The position numbers were made by a program, and so were the translations under genes. From a virus, in IMG/VR virus record IMGVR_UViG_3300024515_000012, positions 1-48,390 of that record: 48,390 nucleotides of DNA; one strand, written 5' to 3'. How positions within the stretch are numbered: the first letter of the stretch is position 1; every line of letters begins with the position of its first letter. A model generated the notes under the pieces. It had not been told where the DNA came from. It saw nothing but the letters and a program-made list of their open reading frames with translations, and made no database searches. Positions 2 through 27,127 of this stretch are shown in pieces.

Positions 2-3000
2 ATTTCTGTCTTTACATACTATGCCTACACAGGATATTTTGCAGAAAACGGTGGAAGAATCCGTGCTGCTAACGGAAACTGTTCTTATGGTTATTTTGGT
101 GCAGTAGCCGAAGGTTATGATTTAGTAGAAGATCCGATTAGTGCAACAGTAGACAATCAAACATTTGAAGCAACCGCAAGCGTCCAACAGTCATTTGGTA
201 TAGAAGCATCACTGTTAAAATTACAATACAGCAATGCTGGAATTGAATATATCCAAACTGTAACAAACTTGTTAAACTATAGCAATAACTTCTTAGGAAC
301 AGGGTGGACAACAGATGGAAATATTAATCTAGCTAAAAATTTAATTAGTCCTAATGGGTTAAATGACGGCTGGACACTAACTGGTACAACATCAAATACT
401 GATAGTTCTTATATCTATAAAAACATAACAATTCCTCCGCAAGGTGCTGTTTACACTAACTTAGCAGGATCAAATGTTTCAGGAAGTGGTTCAGGTGCAA
501 CATTTGACGTTACAGTTAGTGCTACAAGTTATAGCGTTATTGTATCACTATCTGGTTCAGGCGGAAGCGGTTACGTTTTAGGAAATCAAATTACTATTTA
601 CGGAAGCCAAGTAGGTGGTCTCGATGGCGTAAACGATATTACTTTAACTGTAGCAAGTCTAGTTGGTTCAACTATTATTACTGTAACTGCAACGGGTACT
701 GTTCCTGCTGGATCTGCTTTACGATATACATTTAGTATCCATGCAAAGAAAGCTACTTCAAACACGTTTGATTTATATGCAATCTTTTCAGGATCTAGTA
801 CACGAACAAGTTACATATCATGGAACTTTAATACAGAAACTTTAACAGCAGGCAACGGTGGCGATGGCGGATTAACACCGACAACTGCATTTAGAGGAGT
901 AGAATATCTTAATGATGATTGGTACAGAATTTGGTTCAGTGTATATGACACTAGTGCTTTAAATAATACTGTGCAATTAAGAATTTATCCAAGAAGCCAA
1001 CTTGGTGTAACAGGAGCTACGTCTTTTTACGGAGCACAAGTTGAAATTGGAAGCTCTCCTAGATTCTATCTGTCAACTACTACTGGCTTATACGATGCTT
1101 ATGCTGATTATATTATTAGTGGTGCAGGTATTAACGCTCAATTAGTAGCTGATGAGACAAGATCTAATAGTATTTTCCAAGCAAGAATAACTGACCCAGG
1201 GTCTGGCGCTGGAGGTTCTGGCTACTTAACATCAAGCAACAACGCACAGGGAGGAAATAGTTCTTTTATTACACTTGCTCAAGCAGACATCAATACTGCT
1301 GCAAACTATAACGGAATGCGAATTTTTATTAACAGCGGTACTGGAGCTGGACAATATGGTTTTATTTCAAACTATGATGAAAATTCAAAAATAGCGTATG
1401 TTCTTAAAGAATCTGTTACTCCACTAACTGTTTCTTCTGCGTCCACTGCCGACGATTCGTTTAGTTTAGGAGACTTAACGGATGATATTAATACACTTTA
1501 TGTCGATCAACCAGTTCAATTTATTCCAACATATTATAGCACTTCTGTTGTTAATACCTCAGAAGAATCATATAGTATTATTAGTATAGTTGGCGGCACA
1601 ACAAACACTATGGCTATTTCAGATACTGCTGTTTTATATTACAATATGCCAATTAAATTTAGTGGTAATATTCCTGAAACAGCAGGAGTAATTTCAAATT
1701 ACACATACTTTGTAGCAGAAATAGTCGATGATTATTATTTTAAAATTTCAAGTACGTCTTTTGGACCAGTGCTTCCATTAACTTCTAGTACCCCAACAGG
1801 AATGAATATTGATATTCCGTCAAATACTAGTTTCTTAAAAGTAACTTCAACAAGCGGCATGTCTGCAAATATGCCAATTCAGTTTACAGGTACAGCACTT
1901 GGCGGTGTTACACTTGGACAAATTTACTACATTAATGATGTAATTGATTCAGTAAGGCTTGCGATTTCTACAGTATTACTAACTCCTGTTGTAACTGCAA
2001 CAGACTCGTCAACAAATAGGCTAACAGTTAGTGCTACTGGAAGTCTTTCTCCACTGAGCCCAATTACATTCTCAGAACCAACTATTGGCGGAATATTTGC
2101 TGATACAAAATATTACATTAGTAAAATAACTAGCGGAACTTCTTTTAGAATTGCAGAAAGCATTTTAACGGTTACTGTTTCGCATACTGCATTTAGTACT
2201 AACTTGATAACTTGTGACAATACATCAGGATTTGTTCCAGATAATCCAATTAAATTTACCGGTAATGGTTTTGGTGGTATTAATGCAGAACAGACTTATT
2301 ACATTCTAGCTGTTAACGACTCAACTACATTTACTGTAGCAAGTTCTGTTGGCGGATCAAGTATTCCGTTAACTACAGCTGATGGATATATGACTGCAAG
2401 AACATGTCCAGCTGAATATAGTGTCATAACTGATGCAGGTTCAATGAATGGTAAAACAACTTTTGCAAAAACAACTTTATCAAGAGGTTCAGGTGCAACT
2501 ATGAATGCTGTGTTTTCAACACCAGTATTTGGAGGCGTAGATCAAGGAACAACCTATTACATTAAAACAATTACTCCAGGAATACCTAACAAGATACAAG
2601 TATCTGCAAGTCCAGGCGGCGCTGTGTTGAATCTAACCACAGGAACAGGTACAATGAAAATTGGAGAAGTTGGTTGGGACCACGTTAATCTTGGAACACA
2701 ACCAGCAGTTGCATTTGATACAACAACATTGTATTATATTGAGCCTCGTCTAACGTTTGCAGAGCCAACATTTAGTCAAACATCTACAACATTGCCAACA
2801 GCTGGCGTAGGAACAACTTATGTAGCAGTGGCTTACGGAGATAATTATTGGATTGCTGTTCCAAATGGAAACACTACTATTGCAGGATCTCCAAATGGAT
2901 CAACTTGGACTACATATACACTACCAGTAACTAGTCCACAAACATGGACTGACATTTGTTACGGAAATACCGCGTGGGTATTGATAGCCAGTGCAACAGA

Positions 3001-4759
3001 TAAAGTTTTATATTCATTCTCAAAAGGCCAATCTTGGAAAACAGGAACATTACCAAGCAGCAGTAACTGGTCAAGTGTGGCGTATTCGAATGGAATATTT
3101 GTTACTGTTGCATCAGGAACCTCCAATGCAGCCTACTCAACTAATTACGGTGCATCTTGGACCGCAAGTACATTGCCTGGTGCTACTGCTACATGGACTA
3201 ATGTTGCTGCCGGAGCTGGAAAATTTGTTGTATTAGGTAATAATACTACACGAGCATTATTGAGTACCGACGGCGGAGCAACATGGAGTGAATATGTCCT
3301 ACCTCTTGCAGCAACTTGGACAAAAGTATCCTACGGTAACGGAAGATTTGTTGCTACATCTAATACAGCAGGAAATCCGGTTTATAGTTTTGATGGCGTA
3401 ACATGGTATCAATCACCATATAGTATAGCTGTTGATGTCCTTGCATACGGAAATGGTGTGTTCTTAGGCTTAATAAGCGGCGGCTCGTACGGATGGCAAA
3501 GTGAAGACGGCCTTGTTTGGAAGAAGAAAACAACTTCAGTAATTTCATACGAAGACGCTGCATTTGGATTTGCATCAACACATCCAGGAAGATTTGTAAC
3601 TGTAGCAGGTTCAGCAATAGGTAGTTACATTATAACTGGCGCAAGAACAAAAGGTCGTCCAATTGTTGAAAATGGTATTGTTACTTCTGTAACTGAATTT
3701 GAGACAGGCGGCGGCTATCTTGCAGCACCAGCAATAACATTATTTGACCCTAACGTTACTACTGCAGCCAGCATTATTCCTAGGTTAGGTAATGGTGTTC
3801 TAAGCGCACCAACATTCATTAATGCAGGTGAAGGATATAACACTAGCTCAACAACTATTATTATTAACGGAAGTGGATACGCACAAGAATATCAAACAGG
3901 ATTAGCTTTACGAGTTAGTAACTTAACCCAACTACCAAGACCAGGAGATGACCTAGTTGTCAACGGAAACAGTACAATCTATAAAGTTACAAATGCAACA
4001 ATATTAAACGGAACCAGTGCACCTAATTTAACTGCTGAAATACAAATTTCTCCAGATATGAGTGTTGCACTAAGCCCTGATCACGCAACCTCACTGATTA
4101 TTAGAGAGCGTTACAGTCAGTGCCGCTTAACAAATCACGATTTCTTGAATATTGGTTTTGGTACAGAACGTCAATCAGGTTATCCAAACCCAGTACCTGA
4201 AGAAACTACTCTTCAATCACAGAATCAAACTATTGAAAATAATTACGGTCGTGTATTCTACACAAGTACAGACCAAGACGGTAATTTTAAAGTTGGTAGT
4301 TTGTTTGGTGTTGAACAGGCAACGGGTATTGTTACGTTAAGTGCTAGTCAATTTGGACTAACTGGTTTGGAAACACTTACACTCGGTGGTATTGCAGTTG
4401 GTGGAAGTAGCGTTGTAATTACACAATTTAGTACAGATGCTACGTTTGTTGCTAACAGTGACACAATCATCCCAACACAAAAAGCAGTTAAATCTTATTT
4501 AACAGCACGTTTAAGTCAGGGCGGTTCTAATACGTTTACTGGTAATACAACCGCAGGTAGTGTTACAATCGGAGGACCTAATCAGATCGGAAGTACTATT
4601 CCTGTGGGAACACCAGGTTATGGTGTTTATATGCTTAATAGAGTCAGTTTTACTGGACTAGAAACAGGTATGGTTGATGGAGATATGCCCGCATTTGACT
4701 TCTTCTTGCGCGGCAAAGGATTTGAAAGGTTGGTTGACCCAAATCGCATTATAAGATAA
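2..4759 (+). CDS. Giant tail-fibre-like structural protein, 5'-truncated by the window edge
   Basis: The frame is open from base 2 with no stop, so the N terminus lies outside the window and any internal start, such as the TTG at 269, is not real. The first 80 codons match the end of the beta-helix region of the next gene (shared RAANGN/RATNGN and SYGYFGAVAEG/SYGTYGVLAEG segments), so the two are paralogues. Following parts are: a phage carbohydrate-binding-like domain (about 269-1100) ending in a GAQVEIGSSPRFY motif; five tandem copies of a FTG..FGG...YY module (about 1600-2660); a sialidase-like propeller with repeated YGNG.F and DG.TW motifs (about 2810-3600); GGGY.AAP repeats; and a C-terminal domain with STDQDGNFKVGSLFGVEQAT and PTQKAVKSYL (4250-4500). 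It probably forms part of the tail-fibre or host-recognition apparatus. The virion role is inferred from context and from cyanophage relatives; no enzyme site is visible. Confidence 0.8.
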   Translation: MSVFTYYAYTGYFAENGGRIRAANGNCSYGYFGAVAEGYDLVEDPISATVDNQTFEATASVQQSFGIEASLLKLQYSNAGIEYIQTVTNLLNYSNNFLGTGWTTDGNINLAKNLISPNGLNDGWTLTGTTSNTDSSYIYKNITIPPQGAVYTNLAGSNVSGSGSGATFDVTVSATSYSVIVSLSGSGGSGYVLGNQITIYGSQVGGLDGVNDITLTVASLVGSTIITVTATGTVPAGSALRYTFSIHAKKATSNTFDLYAIFSGSSTRTSYISWNFNTETLTAGNGGDGGLTPTTAFRGVEYLNDDWYRIWFSVYDTSALNNTVQLRIYPRSQLGVTGATSFYGAQVEIGSSPRFYLSTTTGLYDAYADYIISGAGINAQLVADETRSNSIFQARITDPGSGAGGSGYLTSSNNAQGGNSSFITLAQADINTAANYNGMRIFINSGTGAGQYGFISNYDENSKIAYVLKESVTPLTVSSASTADDSFSLGDLTDDINTLYVDQPVQFIPTYYSTSVVNTSEESYSIISIVGGTTNTMAISDTAVLYYNMPIKFSGNIPETAGVISNYTYFVAEIVDDYYFKISSTSFGPVLPLTSSTPTGMNIDIPSNTSFLKVTSTSGMSANMPIQFTGTALGGVTLGQIYYINDVIDSVRLAISTVLLTPVVTATDSSTNRLTVSATGSLSPLSPITFSEPTIGGIFADTKYYISKITSGTSFRIAESILTVTVSHTAFSTNLITCDNTSGFVPDNPIKFTGNGFGGINAEQTYYILAVNDSTTFTVASSVGGSSIPLTTADGYMTARTCPAEYSVITDAGSMNGKTTFAKTTLSRGSGATMNAVFSTPVFGGVDQGTTYYIKTITPGIPNKIQVSASPGGAVLNLTTGTGTMKIGEVGWDHVNLGTQPAVAFDTTTLYYIEPRLTFAEPTFSQTSTTLPTAGVGTTYVAVAYGDNYWIAVPNGNTTIAGSPNGSTWTTYTLPVTSPQTWTDICYGNTAWVLIASATDKVLYSFSKGQSWKTGTLPSSSNWSSVAYSNGIFVTVASGTSNAAYSTNYGASWTASTLPGATATWTNVAAGAGKFVVLGNNTTRALLSTDGGATWSEYVLPLAATWTKVSYGNGRFVATSNTAGNPVYSFDGVTWYQSPYSIAVDVLAYGNGVFLGLISGGSYGWQSEDGLVWKKKTTSVISYEDAAFGFASTHPGRFVTVAGSAIGSYIITGARTKGRPIVENGIVTSVTEFETGGGYLAAPAITLFDPNVTTAASIIPRLGNGVLSAPTFINAGEGYNTSSTTIIINGSGYAQEYQTGLALRVSNLTQLPRPGDDLVVNGNSTIYKVTNATILNGTSAPNLTAEIQISPDMSVALSPDHATSLIIRERYSQCRLTNHDFLNIGFGTERQSGYPNPVPEETTLQSQNQTIENNYGRVFYTSTDQDGNFKVGSLFGVEQATGIVTLSASQFGLTGLETLTLGGIAVGGSSVVITQFSTDATFVANSDTIIPTQKAVKSYLTARLSQGGSNTFTGNTTAGSVTIGGPNQIGSTIPVGTPGYGVYMLNRVSFTGLETGMVDGDMPAFDFFLRGKGFERLVDPNRIIR

Positions 4760-4788
4760 CGCATTGATTATAATGTCAGATTATGGTT

Positions 4789-4799
4789 TAGATAAATAT
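4789..4799 (+). promoter_or_regulatory. T4-type late promoter box
   Basis: The sequence TAGATAAATAT resembles the T4 late -10 element TATAAATA, which is recognised by the phage sigma factor gp55. It lies in the 62-base gap before the 3667-aa structural gene. Transcription would start near 4804, leaving a short leader that contains the AAAGGA ribosome-binding site. The same core recurs before gp13 and before the gene at 44777. Confidence 0.6.
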
Positions 4800-4821
4800 G
4801 ATATCAAAGGAATAGAATAAA

Positions 4822-7800
4822 ATGGCAGAATTTATACTAGGTAGAATTAAGTTTGTTTACAGAAACAACTGGGCAAGCTCTACAGCGTATGTAGTTGACG
4901 ATGTTGTAACTAAAGGCGGAAAAACCTTTATTTGTATTGACAACCATACATCAAGTTCAATATTCGAAACAGACTACGATCCAAATCCAGCCTTATCAAA
5001 GTGGAATTTGTTAGCAGACGGTCAACAGTGGAGAGCAGACTGGTCTGCAAGCACCGACTATAACGAAGGAGACTTGGTTAAGTATGGCGGCTTAGTTTAC
5101 ATTTGTAACACACCACACACTTCTGCCACATATACTAGTCCTACATGGTTAGGGTTAGAACAAGATCAAGCCAAGTGGGATGTATTTGCTACATCTCTTG
5201 ATTGGAAAGGCAGTTGGTCTACAAGTACAAGATATAAAGTAAACGACATTGTATCTTATAATGGATATACATATATTTGTATAACTAAACATATTTCAGC
5301 AGCAACTGCTAGCCTAGGGCTTGAAAATGACCAAGGCAAGTGGCAAACAGTTAATCCAGGTATAAAATATCTAGGTTCTTGGGTAAGTTTAGGCTCATCT
5401 TACAGATATAAATTAAACGACTTAGTAAAATACGGTGCCGATCTATGGATCTGTACCGCTGCACACACATCAACTGCAAACTTTGAAGACGGCAGCTGGT
5501 CAATTTTCTTAAACGGTTTTGAATTTGAAAACAGTTGGAGCAATTCTACCACTTATCAGATTGGTGATATTGTAACTTACGGTGGTTATAGCTATGTTGC
5601 AAAACAAAATCACACAGGCAAAAAACCATCAGCAGAACCAACCTACTGGGACGTATACACAACAGGATTCAGCTTTGAGGGCGACTGGAATAATTTAACA
5701 ACTTACAAAATAGGTAGTGTTGTCCGTAACGGAGGATACACATATCTTGCAGAACTTGACTGTCCTAGCATCAGTTCAACTGCAACAGCTACAACAGTAT
5801 CTACAGACCCAACAAATCCAAATACAATTTCTGCTGACACTACAGGCTTTGTTGCAGGAATGATTGTATACTTTGGAAGTTCATTTGGCGGCATCGTTGC
5901 AAACACAAAATATTACATTTTAAGTTCAGGTTTAACTGGATCTAGATTTAAAATAAGTACCGTTGCTGGCGGATCACCAGTCACACTAACAACTACTACT
6001 GGTCAAAGCGTGAGCATTACTGTTGCTCCAGAACCAGAAAATACAACATATTGGTCAAAATTAAATTCAGGATTTAAGTGGAGAAATAATCCAGCTACAT
6101 ATACAGCAGTTGCTGGTACAGTTCAAGGATCAAGTCTTGGTATTAATCAAACATTTGATATAACAAGAACAGGAACTGTATATAGTGTAACTGTAAATAA
6201 TGGCGGAAGCTATTTTGTTGCAGGTGATCAGATTAAAATTTTAGGAACCGCACTAGGCGGAATTAGTCCTGCAAACGATTTATTAATTACTGTAAGTACT
6301 GCTTCTTCTGGTGTTATTACAGCAGTAACACATGAAGGTATAAGTGTAACATGGACATCAGGAACACTTTATGTTCTTGGGGATGTTGTTTTCTTTGGAG
6401 CAAGCAGCTATACATGTATACAAGAACATGTTGGATCTACAGGAACTCGTCCAGATAACGACATAACTGCAACTTATTGGAACATTGTTTCTGTTGGTGC
6501 AGAAATTGCAACATTAACTACAGCAGGTGACACACTTTACTATAGCCCTATTGGACCAACAAGACTACCAATTGGCCGCGACGGCCAAGTGCTTCGTGTT
6601 AAAGACGGATATCCAAGTTGGGAAACATACGGGCATGTTTTCAATGCTGTGTATGTTGGTCCTACTGGCGTAGACTTGCCTTATCCTCAAAGCGGATTTA
6701 GTATTGACCAGCCATGGAAAACTGTTAGATATGCCTGCAAACAAATTGAAGAAGGTTATCGCAATCCACAAGCAAAACATATACTGCAAACAAACAAAAC
6801 ATTTTTAATTAAAGAAGCATTCAATTATCTTGAATACACATATAAAGCTTCAGTTACAGGAACTTCTAGCGGTTCATTCTTAACAGCAGATACTTCTAAA
6901 TTAAATTTAAAAATGCCTATAGTGTTTGAAGATCAAACAGGCAGTCTAACATTAAATTCAAGTGCAATTAACTCAAGCACAACTTACTATGTCAAAGCTA
7001 TTGTATCTAATACTAGCTTTACAGTTTCATCAACACCAACTGGTTCTGCATTAGTAGCAGCAGGTACTGGAACTGCAACTGCAAAATTTAGTTACAACAA
7101 ATCAAAAGCAAAACGAGATGCTGGAATTGTAATTGAAGGTTTAATATATGATATAAGTCGTGGAGGAAATTATAAAACTACTGCAAATACTTTAGCATTT
7201 TATGATTCAACAGGAACAGCTTATATCACGACAAATACAGAACTTCAAATTACACAATTTATACAAAGTCATGCGTATTTGAAATCAATATTACCGTATG
7301 TGCTATCAAATACTGTTGTGCCAACCAGTTATCAAACACTAAACAGCGATACAGACCCAGTTTACCAAATTCGTGATACTGATTACACAGCAGAAAGTGA
7401 TGTTGCAAGTACCGTTAGTGAATTAATGGACATTTTAATTGATGGTTTAACACAAGGTGATACATCAACTACAGCTATTGCAAAAACACCAAACACAACT
7501 ATTAATATAAAAACAGGTACCTATTTGGAAGTCCTACCTATTGTAGTTCCTGAATATACAGCACTAGTTGGCGATGAACTACGTTCAACTGTTGTTCAAC
7601 CAAAAGGTGGTAACGATATCTTAATCAACGATCAGCCAAAAACTAAGAGTGCATTAGAACGTGTTAAAGCAGTATTACCAAGCGTTTTATCTAACACAAC
7701 TGTGTCAGTGAGTTCAGGAAACACAGCAACACAAGAATTTTTATACACAGCAAATGATAATACTCTAACCGCAAGTATAACAAACAACACTAATGTAATG

Positions 7801-10800
7801 GTCACTTGTATTGTTGACGGTGATAATTTTAGTTCTGCATCGCCAACAGCAGTTCTTCCAACACCAACTGGCGGAACCGGCAATGCATATACAGCAGGCT
7901 ATTTTAACGCAGCAAGATTAATTAAACTTAATAGAGCATTGATTATTGATGAAGTTCAATATTTGATGAACTCAACTTACGGTACATTATGGAACACAAC
8001 ATTTACAGCAACACAGCGAGCACAAACACTAAGAGATGCTGGTTATATCGTTGATGCTGTTGTATATGATTTGACTTATGGTGGAAATCTAGCAACTGTT
8101 ATTGCCGGACGCTCATATTACAGCAATGGAAGCATTGTAGTTCCAACAAGTAAAACAGAAACTCTGGCATGTCAAGCACGTATTAAAGATATTATTGACA
8201 ATATTGCACAAGGGTTAACTACTGGTTGGACAAAATACAGTTCTATAGCTCAAGATACTAGCGGTACAGCTGGTACATTAGTAGCCGCACAATTTGCACA
8301 AGCTCGTGTTCAAGAAATATACGATGCAACTAATACTGGTACAGCACCAACAACTACTGCACCAGACATTACATGGGTAAGCGCATCAAAATTAGCTGCA
8401 AATACAGCTATTGTTGCAGCAACAACTGATATACAAGCTGAAACACAACAGTGGATTCAAGATGCATATCCACTACTACCTTACAATATAACAACATGCG
8501 ATAGAGATATTGGTTATTTTATTGATGCACTTCGTTACGATATGATGTTCGGTAGTAATTATCTAAGCATTAAAAACGGTGAATCATATCGCCGAGCATT
8601 GACATCATCGCAGTTTGTCATTGACAATCAGCTTGAAGCTGAAGTAGGTATGATTGGTTTCTTAAGTGCCGCACTAAAGGAAATAACTGGAGGCGGAACA
8701 TCAGGTAGTGCTGGTAGTTTCCGTGCAATTAGAAGAGTTGAAAGCGCAGCAAAAACTGTTTACAACATCATTTCTTCTGGATTTACAAGAGTTCCAAGTA
8801 TTCAATTTACAACTCCAACAGGATACAATACTTCCACTCTAACAAATACAGCATACGCTGCAACAGGCTATGCTACAGGAGACACATCTAACTTTGGTGA
8901 CGGTAAAGCACAGATAGTTCAAAACTACGATTTTATTGTAGCAGATACATTACAATATTATGCAAATGGAGCATACGGTGGTGTATGGACATCTACTACC
9001 ACCGAAGGCCGTGATAAAGGTAAACGAGATATCAAATATATCTTAGATGCGATCCAACATGACATGACCTACGGTGGTAACTATCAAGCATCAATTGCCG
9101 GTAGTGCATACTATAGTTCTTACTTACTAAACATTAGTGAAGCAGAAAAACCTGCGTTCATTGATTTGTTTGGTTTTATGAAAACACTAATTGGTAAGAT
9201 TGTTCGAAAAGACGCTATTGTTGCACAATCAGGAAACACAGTAACTAGAGTTACGACAGGTACAGCAGGTAGTGCTGCCGCTGGAGCATTTGCAGAAGAT
9301 AGAGTTCAAAACGTAATTGATTGGATTACTAACGGCGAAGCACCAACACAAGTAGCACCATACTACGGTTGGGCAAGTACAACGCTACAGAACGCCTATG
9401 CTGCTGTACAAACAAAACGTTCAGAGATTGCTGCAGACGCAACAAGTTGGGTGCAGAAAAATTACCAAAGTGTTGTTCTTGATTTAGTTTTAACAACACG
9501 AGATGCCGGACTAGTTGTTGACGCCATTGCTTACGATATGGTATTAGGTACAAACTTTAATGCTTTAAGTGCAGGTAGAAGATATCTAGCAGGTACTACT
9601 TCAACTGAAGCATTACTAAACGGACCTGAAAAAGATCCAACACTTGGCGCAATTGATTTTATTAAATTTAAAACTAAAACTATTGCAGCCTATGGTGCTG
9701 TTGCACAAACACAGTCTATTCTATCTGACATTATCAACAAAACATCATCTAATTTTACACCAAAATTAGCTATGATTGAACCTGTTCTTCCAGCAGCGTC
9801 TTACTCAGCAGTTTCGGGAACTAACGTTGTTGGTTCGGGTTCAAGTGCAACATTTAACTTTGTCAGAACTGCCGCAGGATTTACCGCAAGTGTAAATGCT
9901 GCTGGTTCAGGTTATGCCGCAAATGATCAAATTAAGATTCTAGGATCTAATATTGGTGGTGCAACACCTGCTAACGATATCACAGTTCTTGTAACTGCTG
10001 TATCAGGTTCTGGAATTACTACAGTTAAAGTGTTAACAGATAGAGAAGCAGTTGTTCTTTTAGAAGATAACAGAGATTTCTTGTTATCAGAAGTTATTGC
10101 CTATATTGATTATACATATCCAACACTAGTTTATAATAAAGATTTAACAGTTAGAGATGCTGGTTATATTCTTGATGCAGTACACTACGATTTGTTGTAT
10201 GGCGGTGATTTTGCTAGCCAGCAAGCCGGTCAAGCATATTACAGTTTTGGAACTAGTGAAATTAGTAGTTATGTTAAAACTGCTACACTAGCAGCAATTA
10301 ACAGACTAAAGACAACAGCAAAACAAGTTATTCAAAATACTAGTGTAACAATAACCACTGGTAACACTAAAACACAAGTGTTTAAGAATGGTGCTCAATT
10401 GCAAGGTAGCTCTGCTACAGCAACAATGATTGATGCATTAATCACTAAGATCTACAATTATGTAGATTTAGGATTAACCAGCGGAGCACCAAGTATTACT
10501 GTTACAACTATTGCAACTGGCGACACATTTACATCTAACGCACACGGTCTTGCAAACGGTGATTATATTGTAAATGAAGGTGCTGATGCAAATGGATTAG
10601 TAAGCGGCACAAGATACTATGTAGTAAGTGCAAGTACAAATACATTTAAACTTGCGGCTACTTATGGAGGAACAGCGTTAACTTCATTTACTAACGGAAC
10701 AGGATTAACATTATCACTACACTATACTAATAATCCATATATTGGTTGGGTAAGTACAGATTTACAAACACAGTATTCAACATTGATGGCGGCAAGAAGC

Positions 10801-13800
10801 ACTCTTACAACAGATGTTGTCAGCTGGATTGATACAAATTATCCTAATTTAGTATACGATACTGCTTTAGCAGCACGAGATGCTGGATTAGCTGTTGATG
10901 CAGCCTGCTTTGACTTTATGTTCAATAGCAATTTTAGAGGTGTAAAAGGTGCACAATCTTATGCTCGTCCACAATCCTCTGCTTTATTAAAAGGAATTTT
11001 AGCAAAAGCAACCAGAGAATCGTTCAAATATCTAACAGAACAAATTTTAGATGATTTAACAGATGCAACTGCAATTACAAGAGCAAGAAAATCTTTAACT
11101 TATGTTATTGATTATCTAGCAGGCAAGAGTGTTGATGAAGATACCGAACTAAACGGAACAACAACCTACAACGTAAATGAAGGTGTGTTGCGTGGTGTTG
11201 AAATCTTAAGAGCTAATACTAATTTCTTAGCTAATGAATCTTCAGCTTGGGTAATTAGAACATTTGGCGGTACTGCAACCTCAACATCAAGCAGCGGAAA
11301 CTTAATAACAACAAGCAGCTCACACAAACTGTCTGTTGGTGATCCAGTTAAGTTTTCTTATACAGAGTTAAATTTTGTTGCTACAAGTAGTAGTTCAACT
11401 ACTAATAGATTTGTTTTAAACAGTACAACAGGTATTGTTATTGGCATGCCAGTGACATTTGCTGGAACTCCATTATTTGGAGGAATTGTAAATTCAACAG
11501 TTTATTATGTCGACAGCATTGCTGGAAACGAAATTTCAATTAGAGCAACTAATGGCGGATCAACCTATGCTCTAATTGATGGAACAGGAATTATGTCTGT
11601 TACTGTTGGAGGACTAATGGGCGGACTTTCAACATCTACTACCTATTATGTCTTAACAACTCCAAGTGTAACAACATTAACAGTAACAGAAACACAATTT
11701 GATTCTACCCCTGTAACATTGACAAGCATGGTTGGATCAATGCATGTTGGTTACGCATTTGATGAAACATCATGCAAACGTGACATGACAGAATTTGTAA
11801 ATGCCCTAGTGTACGATACACAATATACAGGTAATTACAAATCTAAGAGAGCAGCTATTCTATACTTTAATGCTATTAAAGGTTCTAAGAAGAGCGACAT
11901 GTGGCATGTACGTAACGGTACAGGTGTTCGTAACATGACTATGAATGGTCTAGAAGGAACACTATCTATACCAAATAATTTTGGAACACGTAGACCAGAA
12001 GCCGGTTCATATACATCACTAGATCCAGGATTTGGTCCATACGATACAAATGCATGGGTATTCAATCGTTCTTGCTATGTACAAAACTGTACACTATTTG
12101 GAACAGGAGCAACGGCCCTAAAGATTGACGGGGCATTACACGCAGGCGGTAACCGTTCTATTGTTGCTAACGATTATACAACATTCATTAGCGATGGTAT
12201 TGGAACATGGTGTAGCGGTTCTAACGCACTAACAGAACTTGTTTCAGTGTTCGCTTACTACTCATATGCAGGATATATTGCTGATTTAGGTGCTAAGATT
12301 CGTGCTACTAACGGTAACAGTTCTTACGGTACATACGGTGTTCTTGCAGAAGGTGTTGACACTTACGAAGAACCAATTGTTGGAGCATTAAACAATCGTG
12401 GTGCAGAAGCATATATCACAAACGTTGTAACAGACGGTGCTGAAGAAGTATTACGTATTGAATTCGCTAATGCTGGTCAGGCTTATACAAATGCAGAATG
12501 GACCGTAAGTGGTTCAGGATATAATGCAACAGCAGTTGGCGATGAATTTAGAGATCGTGCTGTTACAGAAACACGTTTAATTGACCTTAACGATGGTTAT
12601 GGATACGGTGGTTCAGGTTATATTACAGCAGCCAATGCGGCACAGATCAGTACAATTGGTACTATTGTATTAGCCGCTTCAGATACTCAGCTAAGTTCTG
12701 CTTACATTGGTATGAGAGTAATAGTTACTGCTGGTACAGGTGCAGGACAAGTTGCTGCAATCTTAACATATACTAACGGTAGCAAAGAAGCTAAGATTTA
12801 CAAAGAATCATTTACTAATTTAACAGTAACAGCTTCTAACTTATCTACTGATAGATTAACTGTGGCAAGTACAGCATCATTATATGCAAACATGCCAATC
12901 TACCTAGGTACAGCAATCGGTGGTGCAAGTGCAAACACACTATACTATGTCAAAACTATTGTAAGTACAACTGAATTTACTATTAGCACAAGTTCGGGTG
13001 GTGCAACATTTGATATTACATCAACAACTAGCGGACAAACAGTAACATTATATGCTGCAGGTTGGGATCATCTTGTTCCAGGTAAGACCGTCTATGATGC
13101 ATTAGATTTAACATCAACATATATTGTTGAACCTAGAATTACATATACTGCACCAGGATACACAGCTACAGCAAGAACATTACCAAGTACAGCAACTTGG
13201 AAAGAAGTTACTTACTCTGCTGGAAGATTTATTGCAATTTCTTCTGGAGCAACATCAACAGCAACATCAACAAACGGAACAACTTGGTCTACAGGCGGAA
13301 ACCTACCAAGCTCAACTACATGGCAAGCTGTTGCATACGGTGGTGGAGAAGGTGCAACAGCAACAGCAGTTGTTGGAGGGTTAGGAGGAATTGGTGCTCA
13401 ACTTACAGCAACAATAACTAACGGCCAGGTAACTGCTATCAACATTATTAAAGGCGGATACGGATATCTAACACCGCCAACAATTAAATTTAGTAGTGGA
13501 TTAGCGGCTGCTACTGCTGTAGTGTTAAATGGTGAGATTGTAGATGTTGTAATTTCAATTCCTGGTTCTGGCTACGTTACTGCACCAACAGTAACAGTAA
13601 GAACAGATATTATTACTTCGTTTACAATGAATTCTTATGGTAAAAACTACACCAGCGCACCAACAGTAACAGTTAGTGGCGGCGGTTCAAGTAACCAAGC
13701 AACAGGAACAGCAGTTGTAAACACAAACAACGGTATTTCGAGTATTACTGTTGGAAATAGTGGTGGCACAGGTTACACTAGCCAACCAACTGTTACAATA

Positions 13801-15825
13801 CTAGATGCAAATGCTAAATTTGTTGCTATACCAAGTACAGCCAGCGGCGGCACTACAAAATCTGCTTATCAAACTGTAGCAGGAGCGGCAGCAGGAAGCG
13901 CATGGACAGCATCAACCGGTTCTTTACCTAACGGTTCTTATGCAGCGATTGCATTTGCCAGCGGTTATTGGGTAGCAGTAGGAGGAACAGCAACTGGAGC
14001 ACGTTCAGTTGATGCAGATACAACATGGAACGCAGTGACATTGCCAACACTAGGTGCAGGAACTTATTCAGGTATTGCATACGGTCACGGCGTATTCATT
14101 GCAATTTCTACTGGTAATAATGCAACAGCGGTATCTACAACATCTGGATCAACTTGGTCAGCAGGAGGAAGTTTACCTTCTAGTGCAAGTTGGTCTAGTA
14201 TCGCATATGGTAACGGACGTTTTGTGGCAATTGCCAGCGGAAGTAACAAAGCGGCTGTTAGTGTTGATAAAGGAACTACATGGGTTGCCAGCAACGCAGG
14301 CCTTCCAGCCAGCGCAACGTGGACTAAAGTTGCTTACGGCCAAGGCGTATTTGTAGCAGTTGCAAGCGGAACAACAACTTGTGCTATTAGCTACGATGGT
14401 TTAACATGGAATACACAATCATTACCAAGTTCAAGTAACTGGAATAGTGTTGCATTTGGTAATCCAAGCAATGCACCAATATTTGCTGCAATTTCAAATA
14501 CTTCAGGTACAATAGCCGCAAGTATTAGAACAGGTGCTCAGGCGCAAGGTCGTATGAAAGTTGCATCAAATACCGTAACTGAAATCCGTATGATTGAGCC
14601 AGGATCAGGATATCCAGCAGGCACAGTTACAGCCACAACAACAAGTACTAATATTATTACTACAAGTGATACAACTAACTTGATAAATCTACAACCAGTA
14701 GAATTTACAGGCCTTGATTCATACGGCTTAACAACTGGAAAAACATACTATGTTACAACTGGTAGCATTGTTGCAAATACATCCTTTAAAGTTTCAGCAG
14801 ATGCTACATTGGCAGCAGCTGGAACAGCCGTAAATCTTACAACTGGCACTGGATTAACTGGAACATACCAAGCAGGCCCAATTGTAACTCAAGTTGATCC
14901 TAACAAAACACGTACAGCACCAACAAGAGTTCGTATGGCAAACGGCGCCTTGGCTAACCCAGGATTTACAAATCGTGGTAACTTAAATACAACTGCTACT
15001 GCAAACGTAACTGGTGACGGTTATAGTGATTTGTATCAGGCAAGTAACTTTATTAACGTAAGCGGATTATTTGAAACACCAAGAGCAGGTGCAAACGTTG
15101 AATTTGCAAGTATTCCAGATACATGGTTTAAACTTGTTGCAGTTACAAACAAACTTGGAACAGCAGGTAACTATAGTGCTACTTTCCAAATTAACCCTGC
15201 ACTGAGTGTACTAAATGCACCAGATCACGGCGATGTAATTACAACAAGACTCAAGTATAGTCAGGTTCGTTTAACAGGACACGACTTCTTGTATATTGGT
15301 ACAGGTAATTTCAGCTCAACAAATTATCCGTTTGTTGATCCGTCAACTTCAATACAGAGTAATCAAGCATTCTTCTCCGATGGAGGACGAGTGTTCTTTA
15401 CAAGTACTGACCAAGATGGTAACTTTAACGTTGGTAACTTGTTTGCGGTTCAACAGGCAACTGGTACAGCTACATTAAATGCTAGTGCGTTCAACTTGTC
15501 AGGTCTACAATCCTTGCAACTTGGTACTGTTAGTGTTGGAGCTGGATCAGCAGTTATTACTAGCTTCTCAACTGATCCGTATTTTACTGCTAACAGTGAT
15601 AATATTCTACCAACACAGAAAGCTGTTAAATCATACATTACAGCCCAGATTGGTGGCGGACAAAGCTCACTAAACGTAAATACATTGACTTCGGGTGTGA
15701 TCTACGTAGCTAATAATACTATAAGTACTACTAGCGGAGTTCAAATTAACGTTAGATCTAAGATGTACTTCCAAGGCGGCATTGACGGGGATCCTGTCGC
15801 CCTAGCTTATTTCATGCAAAGATAA
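4822..15825 (+). CDS. Giant (3667 aa) multidomain tail-fibre-like structural protein
   Basis: No signal peptide is visible. The N-terminal part holds seven copies of a W..ST.Y..GD.V..GG..Y.C..HT repeat (4857-5750 and 6352-6450), resembling carbohydrate-binding modules of family 5/12. Next comes a beta-helix start typical of pectin-lyase-like phage proteins (NAVYVGPTGVD and PWKTVRYACKQI, near 6636-6750). Eight degenerate RDAGY..DA..YDL.YGGN repeats follow (7111-11871). The beta-helix then resumes (11900-12360: VRNGTGVRNMTMNGLEG, LKIDGALHAGGN). A sialidase-like propeller follows (13190-14520), and the C-terminal domain (15240-15640: STDQDGNFNVGNLF, PTQKAVKSYI) is shared with the preceding gene. 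The start at 4822 has an AAAGGA site upstream. It is probably a distal fibre or tail-surface protein that binds polysaccharide; that is inferred from domain types. Cyanophages are known to carry similar very large proteins. Confidence 0.85.
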   Translation: MAEFILGRIKFVYRNNWASSTAYVVDDVVTKGGKTFICIDNHTSSSIFETDYDPNPALSKWNLLADGQQWRADWSASTDYNEGDLVKYGGLVYICNTPHTSATYTSPTWLGLEQDQAKWDVFATSLDWKGSWSTSTRYKVNDIVSYNGYTYICITKHISAATASLGLENDQGKWQTVNPGIKYLGSWVSLGSSYRYKLNDLVKYGADLWICTAAHTSTANFEDGSWSIFLNGFEFENSWSNSTTYQIGDIVTYGGYSYVAKQNHTGKKPSAEPTYWDVYTTGFSFEGDWNNLTTYKIGSVVRNGGYTYLAELDCPSISSTATATTVSTDPTNPNTISADTTGFVAGMIVYFGSSFGGIVANTKYYILSSGLTGSRFKISTVAGGSPVTLTTTTGQSVSITVAPEPENTTYWSKLNSGFKWRNNPATYTAVAGTVQGSSLGINQTFDITRTGTVYSVTVNNGGSYFVAGDQIKILGTALGGISPANDLLITVSTASSGVITAVTHEGISVTWTSGTLYVLGDVVFFGASSYTCIQEHVGSTGTRPDNDITATYWNIVSVGAEIATLTTAGDTLYYSPIGPTRLPIGRDGQVLRVKDGYPSWETYGHVFNAVYVGPTGVDLPYPQSGFSIDQPWKTVRYACKQIEEGYRNPQAKHILQTNKTFLIKEAFNYLEYTYKASVTGTSSGSFLTADTSKLNLKMPIVFEDQTGSLTLNSSAINSSTTYYVKAIVSNTSFTVSSTPTGSALVAAGTGTATAKFSYNKSKAKRDAGIVIEGLIYDISRGGNYKTTANTLAFYDSTGTAYITTNTELQITQFIQSHAYLKSILPYVLSNTVVPTSYQTLNSDTDPVYQIRDTDYTAESDVASTVSELMDILIDGLTQGDTSTTAIAKTPNTTINIKTGTYLEVLPIVVPEYTALVGDELRSTVVQPKGGNDILINDQPKTKSALERVKAVLPSVLSNTTVSVSSGNTATQEFLYTANDNTLTASITNNTNVMVTCIVDGDNFSSASPTAVLPTPTGGTGNAYTAGYFNAARLIKLNRALIIDEVQYLMNSTYGTLWNTTFTATQRAQTLRDAGYIVDAVVYDLTYGGNLATVIAGRSYYSNGSIVVPTSKTETLACQARIKDIIDNIAQGLTTGWTKYSSIAQDTSGTAGTLVAAQFAQARVQEIYDATNTGTAPTTTAPDITWVSASKLAANTAIVAATTDIQAETQQWIQDAYPLLPYNITTCDRDIGYFIDALRYDMMFGSNYLSIKNGESYRRALTSSQFVIDNQLEAEVGMIGFLSAALKEITGGGTSGSAGSFRAIRRVESAAKTVYNIISSGFTRVPSIQFTTPTGYNTSTLTNTAYAATGYATGDTSNFGDGKAQIVQNYDFIVADTLQYYANGAYGGVWTSTTTEGRDKGKRDIKYILDAIQHDMTYGGNYQASIAGSAYYSSYLLNISEAEKPAFIDLFGFMKTLIGKIVRKDAIVAQSGNTVTRVTTGTAGSAAAGAFAEDRVQNVIDWITNGEAPTQVAPYYGWASTTLQNAYAAVQTKRSEIAADATSWVQKNYQSVVLDLVLTTRDAGLVVDAIAYDMVLGTNFNALSAGRRYLAGTTSTEALLNGPEKDPTLGAIDFIKFKTKTIAAYGAVAQTQSILSDIINKTSSNFTPKLAMIEPVLPAASYSAVSGTNVVGSGSSATFNFVRTAAGFTASVNAAGSGYAANDQIKILGSNIGGATPANDITVLVTAVSGSGITTVKVLTDREAVVLLEDNRDFLLSEVIAYIDYTYPTLVYNKDLTVRDAGYILDAVHYDLLYGGDFASQQAGQAYYSFGTSEISSYVKTATLAAINRLKTTAKQVIQNTSVTITTGNTKTQVFKNGAQLQGSSATATMIDALITKIYNYVDLGLTSGAPSITVTTIATGDTFTSNAHGLANGDYIVNEGADANGLVSGTRYYVVSASTNTFKLAATYGGTALTSFTNGTGLTLSLHYTNNPYIGWVSTDLQTQYSTLMAARSTLTTDVVSWIDTNYPNLVYDTALAARDAGLAVDAACFDFMFNSNFRGVKGAQSYARPQSSALLKGILAKATRESFKYLTEQILDDLTDATAITRARKSLTYVIDYLAGKSVDEDTELNGTTTYNVNEGVLRGVEILRANTNFLANESSAWVIRTFGGTATSTSSSGNLITTSSSHKLSVGDPVKFSYTELNFVATSSSSTTNRFVLNSTTGIVIGMPVTFAGTPLFGGIVNSTVYYVDSIAGNEISIRATNGGSTYALIDGTGIMSVTVGGLMGGLSTSTTYYVLTTPSVTTLTVTETQFDSTPVTLTSMVGSMHVGYAFDETSCKRDMTEFVNALVYDTQYTGNYKSKRAAILYFNAIKGSKKSDMWHVRNGTGVRNMTMNGLEGTLSIPNNFGTRRPEAGSYTSLDPGFGPYDTNAWVFNRSCYVQNCTLFGTGATALKIDGALHAGGNRSIVANDYTTFISDGIGTWCSGSNALTELVSVFAYYSYAGYIADLGAKIRATNGNSSYGTYGVLAEGVDTYEEPIVGALNNRGAEAYITNVVTDGAEEVLRIEFANAGQAYTNAEWTVSGSGYNATAVGDEFRDRAVTETRLIDLNDGYGYGGSGYITAANAAQISTIGTIVLAASDTQLSSAYIGMRVIVTAGTGAGQVAAILTYTNGSKEAKIYKESFTNLTVTASNLSTDRLTVASTASLYANMPIYLGTAIGGASANTLYYVKTIVSTTEFTISTSSGGATFDITSTTSGQTVTLYAAGWDHLVPGKTVYDALDLTSTYIVEPRITYTAPGYTATARTLPSTATWKEVTYSAGRFIAISSGATSTATSTNGTTWSTGGNLPSSTTWQAVAYGGGEGATATAVVGGLGGIGAQLTATITNGQVTAINIIKGGYGYLTPPTIKFSSGLAAATAVVLNGEIVDVVISIPGSGYVTAPTVTVRTDIITSFTMNSYGKNYTSAPTVTVSGGGSSNQATGTAVVNTNNGISSITVGNSGGTGYTSQPTVTILDANAKFVAIPSTASGGTTKSAYQTVAGAAAGSAWTASTGSLPNGSYAAIAFASGYWVAVGGTATGARSVDADTTWNAVTLPTLGAGTYSGIAYGHGVFIAISTGNNATAVSTTSGSTWSAGGSLPSSASWSSIAYGNGRFVAIASGSNKAAVSVDKGTTWVASNAGLPASATWTKVAYGQGVFVAVASGTTTCAISYDGLTWNTQSLPSSSNWNSVAFGNPSNAPIFAAISNTSGTIAASIRTGAQAQGRMKVASNTVTEIRMIEPGSGYPAGTVTATTTSTNIITTSDTTNLINLQPVEFTGLDSYGLTTGKTYYVTTGSIVANTSFKVSADATLAAAGTAVNLTTGTGLTGTYQAGPIVTQVDPNKTRTAPTRVRMANGALANPGFTNRGNLNTTATANVTGDGYSDLYQASNFINVSGLFETPRAGANVEFASIPDTWFKLVAVTNKLGTAGNYSATFQINPALSVLNAPDHGDVITTRLKYSQVRLTGHDFLYIGTGNFSSTNYPFVDPSTSIQSNQAFFSDGGRVFFTSTDQDGNFNVGNLFAVQQATGTATLNASAFNLSGLQSLQLGTVSVGAGSAVITSFSTDPYFTANSDNILPTQKAVKSYITAQIGGGQSSLNVNTLTSGVIYVANNTISTTSGVQINVRSKMYFQGGIDGDPVALAYFMQR

Positions 15826-24991: not shown

Positions 24992-25614
24992 TAATAATGC
25001 CCTATAAAATTCATGCTCACACAAACTCGTTCATCGTTTGTTTGACTAGTTTGAGTTCTGTGTTTTAACCAACTTGGGAATAAAACTAACTCAAATTGCG
25101 ATGCATCTACTTCCGTATACATGTGAGAAATGCCAACAGGAGTATATTCGCTATACTCATGTATTGGCGTCATTTTATGTATATATTCTAGTGGATCTAC
25201 AAATTCTATATTTCCGGATAATGCTGGTTTTTTAAAATAATAAGCAGCAGATATGTGTGCTCTAACTGCACCACCGCAATGACTGTGTTCGCCGGTTACC
25301 TGTCCAAATTTATGAGAATTAGCCCATGCACTTGTGCATTCAATTTTGGCACCGGTCCTGTAATGTAAGGCGCTCCAGTAGTGATATACACATTCAAACA
25401 CTTTGGGCATTAACCATTGCGATTCGGGTCGTTCGTGTAAAAATAGATTGTATTCGCCTGTTGATTTCCCAGTTTCTAATGCCCACGCATCTTCGGTTGC
25501 TCTATTAAACAGGGCATTGAGGTATGTATCAAACACTTGATATTCCTCTTGTGAAGGTTCAATTTTGTATTTTTGAACTAGTATGGGAAACAAATTTAAA
25601 TTATTGATGAACAT
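24991..25614 (-). CDS. 2OG-Fe(II) oxygenase-like protein between halogenases (207 aa)
   Basis: Residues 95-200 carry the pattern SAWANSHKFGQVTGEHSH, YYFKKP, GNIEFVDP, LVLFPSWLKHRTQ and DERVCVSMNF. Likely iron ligands are His110, His112 and His185, and Arg196 would hold 2OG. This is the same HxH-type family as the genes at 20824 and 34250. It is the only oxygenase placed inside the halogenase run, overlapping halogenase 2 by 14 bases and meeting halogenase 1 at a TAATG junction, which suggests the products act together. The substrate is unknown. Confidence 0.75.
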   Translation of the reverse strand: MFINNLNLFPILVQKYKIEPSQEEYQVFDTYLNALFNRATEDAWALETGKSTGEYNLFLHERPESQWLMPKVFECVYHYWSALHYRTGAKIECTSAWANSHKFGQVTGEHSHCGGAVRAHISAAYYFKKPALSGNIEFVDPLEYIHKMTPIHEYSEYTPVGISHMYTEVDASQFELVLFPSWLKHRTQTSQTNDERVCVSMNFIGHY

Positions 25615-27127
25615 TTTGAAATCCTTGAATTTTTTCCATATGTTCTTTATATTTTTCTAAAAACAATTCTAGAATTTTCTTATGAGGCATGTGTACTAGT
25701 TCTTGTTCTAGTTTTTTATTCACATCGATAATTTCTTGAGATCGAATCTTAATGTACGGCGATAACATAGATACTTCTCTTTCAACATTTTCTCGTTTTA
25801 TTAGTTGCATTCCGTGTAGTGTAACTATCCAATTAGACGCAGCAAATAAACTGTATTGCTTATTAAAATCAACCACCATAGGCAATCGTTTTTCCCACTT
25901 GGCCAGTTTTGTTTTTAACGATTGCGGCATCCATTGTTCACGATTATCTTTAAGATCCCTCCAAAAGGCTGTATCTTCTCGCGGACTAACATAGTGTACA
26001 GCAATAAAATCTAAGATGTTTTCACACAAGTTATCACACTTGTCATTGTAAATTTCTGCTATTTCTTCATTATTGTTAAGCCAACAAGGTAATAAGTTTG
26101 TAATTAAAAATGCCTGTAGAACTGTTTGACTAATAGCAGAGCTTTCGAGCGGCTCCACAAAGCTAGAACAAAGCCCAATGCTGGCACAATTTTTAATCCA
26201 GGCTTTATCTAACTTGCCTGCTTCAAATTTAATCTTTTTAGCAATATTAACTTTTTTACCTAATACACGCTCTACTTCTGCTTGTGCTTGATCAAAATCA
26301 ATGTACTTGTCGCAAAATACGTAACCATTTCCCCATCTTCCTCTAACAGGAGTGTTCCACATCCATCCGTAATCTAATGCAGTTGCTTGGGTACATACAG
26401 GATATTCATCGGTGTCTTCGGTTGGAAAGGCAATAGCACTATTCAACCATAAGTGATCTTTGTAACTAACCCACTTTGCACCTAATTTGCTGATTAATAA
26501 TTTTGAAAATCCTGAACAATCGATAAAAAAATCTGCTGAATATGAATCGTTGCCTCCGTGAAGAGTTTTAATATAACCGTCATCAGTTAGTTCTACATCA
26601 GTGATTTTATCATCAATTACAGGTATATTTCTATTTTTACAAAGTTTATGTAGGTAGTCGTTGGTACTGAATGTATTAAAATGAAATTGATTTACAGGAC
26701 ATGCTGCTGTACCTTCTAACCAACCAACTGGTATTTCATTGTTAACACATCGTCTATCAAAAATAATATCAATAGGACTAGCACCTTGGCTAATCATAAG
26801 AGCATACACAGCAAGATAATCTCCTGCAGCTTGAGAATAAGGTTCACAAGTTGCATGATAATAATCAGGTACTCCCCAGTTGCTGAATTTTATTCCTGCC
26901 TTTAAAGTAGCGCCGCATTCGGCTAGTGTTTCTTCTAAAGGTATACCTATAAAATCACAAAAATGATGCCAGTGCTCAGTTGCACCTTCTCCTACTCCAA
27001 TAATTCCAACAGCAGAACTTTCAATAACCCTAATATCTTTATCTGGGTATTGAGTTTTCATCATTAACGCGGTAATCATCCCACTTGTTCCTCCCCCGAG
27101 GACTATCATTGTGTCAATCTTGTCCAT
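25601..27127 (-). CDS. Flavin-dependent tryptophan-halogenase family protein, copy 2
   Basis: FAD motif GGGTSG (11-16), GVGEGATEHW (44-53), catalytic-type Lys76 (GATLKAGIKF), and EPLES (325-329) are present. The signature motif reads Trp255-Met-Trp257-Asn-Thr259-Pro260, so Ile of WxWxIP is replaced by Thr. It is most like copy 4: both have GVGEG.TEHW, GAT.K.GIKF.NW and NQ.HF.T, pointing to duplication within the cluster. The start overlaps the end of copy 3 by 14 bases. The family acts as FADH2-dependent halogenases on indole, pyrrole or phenol groups; with the altered motif, halogenase activity is likely but not certain. Confidence 0.85.
   Translation of the reverse strand: MDKIDTMIVLGGGTSGMITALMMKTQYPDKDIRVIESSAVGIIGVGEGATEHWHHFCDFIGIPLEETLAECGATLKAGIKFSNWGVPDYYHATCEPYSQAAGDYLAVYALMISQGASPIDIIFDRRCVNNEIPVGWLEGTAACPVNQFHFNTFSTNDYLHKLCKNRNIPVIDDKITDVELTDDGYIKTLHGGNDSYSADFFIDCSGFSKLLISKLGAKWVSYKDHLWLNSAIAFPTEDTDEYPVCTQATALDYGWMWNTPVRGRWGNGYVFCDKYIDFDQAQAEVERVLGKKVNIAKKIKFEAGKLDKAWIKNCASIGLCSSFVEPLESSAISQTVLQAFLITNLLPCWLNNNEEIAEIYNDKCDNLCENILDFIAVHYVSPREDTAFWRDLKDNREQWMPQSLKTKLAKWEKRLPMVVDFNKQYSLFAASNWIVTLHGMQLIKRENVEREVSMLSPYIKIRSQEIIDVNKKLEQELVHMPHKKILELFLEKYKEHMEKIQGFQNVHQ

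Follow-up and report, generated by a model that had tools for sequence, protein, structure and literature searches.

Inserted and nested domains described so far

Deeply nested domain insertions are uncommon. One parallel lies in the Si3 region of the β′ subunit of cyanobacterial RNA polymerase, where HABAS domains, all of one family, are nested within each other to six levels (PMC13114784, PMC11515920), and a survey published in 2026, whose main text runs without viruses or phages, names these six levels as extreme (PMC13114784). In phages, the insertion domain (I-domain) of the P22/CUS-3 coat protein is an autonomously folding six-stranded β-barrel inserted in a virion protein (PMC11243222). 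Promiscuous domains and domain-level mosaicism are likewise already known among the virion proteins of phages, and domain databases cover tail fibres poorly (PMC10684548). The literature that we searched, which covered few subscription papers, gave no report of nested or promiscuous insertions in tail fibres; promiscuous virion domains and recursive insertion are both known there, and a self-inserting fibre domain with graded states that still segregate was not found.

Here we describe a module of ~75 residues from the giant fibre genes of T4-like phages, and we consider it very probable that this module is inserted into fibres, exchanged between them and nested within itself. It resembles the HABAS domains of Si3 in that domains of the same family are inserted into each other, but protein and domain are different, and the Si3 nest is presented as an ancient episode (PMC11515920), whereas the fibre insertions still differ between close relatives. 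With the P22/CUS-3 I-domain it shares a six-stranded β-barrel inserted in a virion protein; however, the I-domain is present as one copy in a coat protein of the HK97 fold, with no nesting in the literature examined, whereas the hosts of the module are tail-fibre-like proteins of phrog_9851. Phage Ig-like and BACON domains are also small accessory domains shuffled among virion proteins, yet their fold differs from that of the best matches of the module, and the module interrupts host domains as well as itself.

The module and its two host genes

The window, meaning the whole 48.4 kb viral contig analysed here, bears a set of T4-like myovirus structural genes including those for tail sheath, sheath stabiliser, tail tube, head-tail adaptor and tail fibres; a tryptophan halogenase-like gene is found on the minus strand at 25604-27127 (phrog_2928, E 2.9e-95). 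Two giant fibre-like genes adjoin each other on the plus strand, to which all features below belong. Fibre gene 1 (2-4759) is an open reading frame of which 1585 residues are seen, its 5′ end lying outside the window, and it matches the phrog_9851 tail fibre in its C-terminal part; residues 192-361 (575-1084) score 41.6 bits, above the cut-off of 36, with NCBIfam NF048003, which describes a phage head spike/GTA fibre domain. Fibre gene 2 (4822-15825) encodes 3667 residues, matches phrog_9851 with E 1.7e-144 and begins with CBM5/12 repeats of the chitin-binding type (Pfam CBM_5_12, E 2.3e-33, six stretches). Relatives of its protein in the isolate collection are mainly cyanophages, S-CAM1 and P-SSM2 among them, together with pelagiphages and others.

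A hidden Markov model built from the window copies finds twelve modules; gene 1 has five and gene 2 seven, one of the latter being split by another copy and matched as two separate pieces. Every copy was recovered at 34-60 bits by leave-one-out models, while 100 locally shuffled versions of both fibre proteins reached at most 14.5 bits with the same seed model and 18.1 bits with the enlarged one; the copies are not a chance finding. All places to which the preliminary description had assigned the ~75-residue unit do hold a module, with borders slightly shifted: an array in gene 1 (1568-2668) and, in gene 2, site S321 in a CBM5/12 loop (5767-6027), site S600 between a host helix and an RDAG motif (6850-7086), site S1736 (10492-10719), site S2283 (12820-13062) and site S2811 (14623-14874). 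The one further place, given as 11278-11745 (site S1923), is in fact occupied by two modules, one within the other.

Empty and occupied loops in related fibres

We collected 77 orthologous fibres from IMG/VR contigs, the window included, cut out their modules in silico and aligned the hosts; sites are numbered by residue along the module-free window host. Both states, empty and occupied, are found at eight loop regions. The counts (occupied/empty) are 17/35 at S321, 37/25 at S600, 12/43 at S1355, 20/7 at S1736, 59/6 at S1923, 47/26 at S2283, 12/61 in the propeller hairpins and 39/38 at S2811, to be read with the host alignment being uncertain between distant orthologues and minor sites possibly misplaced. 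Parsimony on the host tree requires 2-5 changes of state per site, and 5 for the alternation between nested and simple occupancy at S1923, with sister fibres differing there (L016 nested, L022 simple).

The CBM5/12 loop gives a clean example. One repeat is cut by the module into an N-terminal part (5686-5769) and a C-terminal part (6028-6075); the loop is occupied in L006 and empty in L003, L004 and L011, and the alignment reads YTYVASADNTG-EQPPNASYW without the module and YTYLAELDCPS[module]PEPENTTYW with it. Relatives carry an uninterrupted YTYVASADNTGEQPPNASYW, and the host domain, which is discontinuous around the module (A1-B-A2), is whole where the module is missing. The preliminary description had proposed such reading through at this loop, at the loop joining EYTYKA to FSYNKSKAKRDAG and at that joining EPGSGY to GPIVTQVDPN, and relatives are uninterrupted at all three. 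Further empty loops are S600 and S2811 in L006 and L011, S1736 in L011, and S2283 in L006, L011 and L027. The module copies are genuine inserts, and the host sequence reads through where the loop is empty.

Gain, loss and exchange between loops

DNA comparison of 214 fibre-like reading frames brought out differences between close relatives. L207 and L188 share 83-84% DNA identity over ~7.3 kb, and the CBM-loop module is present in L207 only; L091 and L151 are 83-89% identical in DNA, and L091 has an extra module. The junction sequence of L188 is nearest to those of other empty alleles (L195, L213, L214, L206), while its wider flanks are nearest to occupied ones, a pattern that fits allele exchange by recombination, and its empty CBM loop may be a local loss. 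Local tandem duplication was rejected as the source of the extra L091 module, which resembles one elsewhere in L269 and in L288, with 74% identity to the L288 module at another loop.

The preliminary description had proposed comparing loop positions and DNA identity between copies, and this comparison revealed module-sized transfers between different loops. In 62 module pairs the modules are at least 60% identical while both flanks fall below 33% identity, the level under which we counted flanks as unrelated. Two modules within one protein, at residues 395 and 2966 of L263, are 68.6% identical, and the module at residue 757 of L048 shares 79% identity (74% in DNA) with that at residue 1381 of L301. 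Because some modules match those at other loops at 69-79% protein identity whereas their flanks are unrelated, we take them to have been transferred between loops, and local DNA alignments of these matches stop within ~15-20 nt of the module borders. No between-loop transfer was seen at very high DNA identity, the best being ~74%, and when the inner module of the nested window pair was used to look for near relatives, five weak matches and no recent donor came up. Modules at the same loop usually diverge only slightly faster than their flanks (e.g., median 0.79 versus 0.86), and therefore vertical inheritance dominates. In L032 the S2283 module is like S2811 modules chiefly in its second half, which suggests recombination inside the module; residues 2494-2570 of L032 form a chimeric module whose second half, unlike its first, is nearly identical to a module at another loop of that protein.

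It could be argued that the modules are ancestral to the fibre and that the variation reflects repeated deletion only. Some sites do look old, as S1923 with 59 occupied and 6 empty orthologues, and L188 may represent a local loss within an occupied clade. Deletion alone is nevertheless very unlikely, given that the module-free distant relatives L011, L086 and L087 show clean read-through sequence, that modules resemble those at other loops, that the extra copy of L091 matches one at another loop, and that nesting cannot arise by deletion. An intein, an intron or a transposon-like element inserting at the DNA level would account for clean in-frame presence or absence between close relatives, but we regard it as extremely improbable: neither fibre protein has an intein/Hint match (up to E 1) or a nuclease match in Pfam, the segment of ~225 bp contains no separate gene and is modelled with high confidence as a folded domain, and its GC content is close to that of the flanks. 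No mobility machinery was seen for the module, and ordinary recombination is therefore the likeliest means of its movement. Of the term “protein-level mobile insert” used in the preliminary description, the part that stands is that the module is gained, lost and exchanged; it seems to be moved by recombination, with no sign of a dedicated mobile element, and is mostly inherited vertically. The broader idea of a promiscuous insert placed in equivalent loops gains support from empty and occupied states, from differences between close relatives and from between-loop transfers.

Insertion of the module into itself

At S1923 of gene 2 the HMM positions run in the order 1-33 (outer N-half, 11272-11376), a complete module (inner copy, positions 1-76, 11377-11613) and 33-75 (outer C-half, 11614-11760), and the outer copy scores 37.6 bits in a leave-one-out model once the inner copy is removed. 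L004 is nested in the same way at the aligned position. In L003 and L006 a single uninterrupted module fills that position, and the inner copy is also absent in L022. The self-insertion point lies between strands 3 and 4 of the outer module. A copy split around an inserted module was called 28 times, in 25 proteins, and the split always falls near module positions 30-41/23-37, which is the strand 3-4 loop.

Deeper nests were read by scoring N- and C-halves separately, that is, from half-module order. In a propeller hairpin of L070 and L071, close relatives that we count as one case, seven N-halves and seven C-halves follow each other as (((((())))())), which reads as nesting to a depth of six, although some of the half scores are weak (3-6 bits, <7). 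Five further proteins (L048, L049, L252, L286, L291) have four N-halves followed by five C-halves, one C-half more than N-halves. The recursive arrangement A1-B1-C-B2-A2 is thus found by model in the window pair and, from sequence only, in the half order of L070/L071.

The array of gene 1 occupies the loop at which gene 2 has just one copy. It had been described as about five units in tandem at 1600-2660, and five copies are indeed present (1568-1810; 1811-1993, a short form without the last strand; 1994-2179, also a short form; 2180-2401; and 2411-2668), all five recovered by leave-one-out models. The array is, however, probably nested inside a split outer copy, with a putative N-half at 1424-1528 that scores a weak 3.3 bits with the half-module model and with the C-half of copy five (2525-2668) probably closing it; in the L003 orthologue of the array both outer halves are clear, the N-half at 14.4 bits. 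Such rows recall ordinary tandem-repeat expansion and contraction by slippage, as do tandem pairs elsewhere (39 “()()” blocks). Slippage as the general explanation is highly unlikely, since copies lie at separate loops kilobases apart, since a row of N-halves followed by a row of C-halves is impossible by tandem duplication of whole units, and since the copies within the array have diverged from one another; the array shares no more than a 35-base DNA match with the rest of the window, from which we conclude that the window copies are old at the DNA level.

That the nested order is an artefact of metagenome assembly might be suspected because the relatives are all uncultured contigs, but the chance of this is vanishingly small. 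Many contigs, taken from different samples and with reading frames open, show the two-level nest, the deep nest recurs in L070/L071 and in the five proteins named above, and a BFVD protein matches the whole length of the window nest (TM 0.82, 46% identity).

Fold and affinities

In the AlphaFold2 model of the nested pair (pLDDT 93.9) a host helix leads into three strands; then come a complete unit of six strands, another three strands and a host helix. The outer module is formed by strands 29-36, 41-44 and 55-59 of its N-half and 155-162, 165-169 and 183-191 of its C-half, the inner one by strands within residues 63-142, and DSSP assigns six strands to each. In the model of the CBM-loop site (pLDDT 88.6) the insert stands apart from the host strands as a separate domain, and a PDB comparison of the host part gives matches to chitin-binding domains. 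Had the segments been integral strands of the host, the notion of an insert would have fallen; at the two sites modelled each is a separate barrel between intact host elements.

Sequence affinities are faint. No Pfam match below E 0.05 exists for the window modules, 58 module members yielded two stray Pfam matches, each in one member, with no family fitting, and there is no significant Ig match in Pfam, nor are the best fold matches Ig; the module is thus a recurrent domain that has no Pfam model. Matches in PHROG are no more than partial and fall variously on tail fibre, major tail and virion structural proteins, and many fibre and baseplate proteins of cyanophages are among the matches to viral structures. 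A tblastn search of the phage collection with the module consensus gave no match, perhaps masked by low-complexity filtering, and the module-only profile found no significant relative among PDB sequences.

The nearest fold is that of E1 enzymes, with Foldseek probabilities of 0.96-0.98 to UBA1 chains over ~83-100 aligned columns at 4.1-4.9 Å, none of these matches falling below E 0.001 (E 0.15 for the chain of highest probability). The aligned part of E1 is what we take to be the FCCH domain, a domain of a cellular enzyme, the ubiquitin-activating enzyme, with no sequence match to the module; a literature search for FCCH-like domains in phage tails gave only ubiquitin papers. Similarity to the P22 coat insertion domain is weak in sequence (E 0.029; hhalign probability 38.6%), and the likeness is suggestive only. 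The module profile also meets residues 190-256 of phi92 endosialidase (PDB 4hiz) at a weakly significant E 0.0077, this being a solved phage tailspike with a single copy of the module-like segment. HABAS domains of Si3 have a barrel-sandwich hybrid fold, and among the best 50 fold matches of the module there is no RNA polymerase chain. The module is not filed as a member of the FCCH, P22 I-domain or phi92 families.

A model for module spread and its possible role

In our explanation the module is a small, independently folding six-stranded β-barrel whose chain enters and leaves the host at one place, so that the host fold stays undisturbed, as the model and the empty sites show. A limited number of permissive loops of T4-like phage giant fibres gain, lose and exchange it in frame; it is for the most part inherited vertically at each loop and sometimes replaced or copied from another loop. 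The module's own strand 3-strand 4 loop is equally permissive, and modules are therefore inserted into modules repeatedly, to two levels by the structure model and up to six as read from half-module order. The movement itself is most likely due to ordinary recombination in phages, acting between fibre genes as well as between copies of the module.

As for function, the module may be an exposed accessory domain of the fibre, lending variety to surface contacts or to the binding of glycans and determining spacing, although a receptor or glycan role is a tentative suggestion that we hold to be rather less probable than not. A nested form might project outward as a side arm, with two chain crossings per level. 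Bolder, and in our opinion unlikely as a whole, is the picture of a recursive unit that spreads through fibres by entering loops first and its own copies afterwards, to as many as six levels, and so builds projecting arms with a tip that can be swapped while the fibre stays untouched, as an ongoing counterpart of the frozen RNA polymerase nest.

Within one alignable gene family, loops are found empty, with a single module, with one nested in another or with many nested levels, and these graded states differ between close relatives; because they coexist, the stepwise growth of nested proteins becomes testable. Some of the variability and size of giant fibre genes in T4-like phages is also explained by the module.

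Other insert types

Three further kinds of insert were noticed. Type B (YTAVAGTNVSGSG...GSGY..GDQI.I.G..LGG..P.ND) is present in both fibre genes, at 452-700, 6100-6339 and 9802-10041; L006 and L011 lack the second of these copies (6100-6339). Type C, made of repeated GSGYTSAPTVTVSGG, lies at 13348-13815 and interrupts a blade of a β-propeller-like region (WQAVAYGGG[...]KFVAIPS). Type D (GTI.VGM.ISG..I.AGTYI...GTG...WTV) is seen in L048 (residues 2640-2710), L071 (residues 2270-2725) and L299 (nucleotides 945-1170 of the reading frame); it sits among nested halves and also fills the CBM loop in other phages, and the CBM loop of L299 and L042 holds a different module type. Lastly, nucleotides 4308-4538 of the L264 reading frame form an insert absent in L149, with a module-like pattern that the HMM missed, and the module family is therefore wider than counted here.
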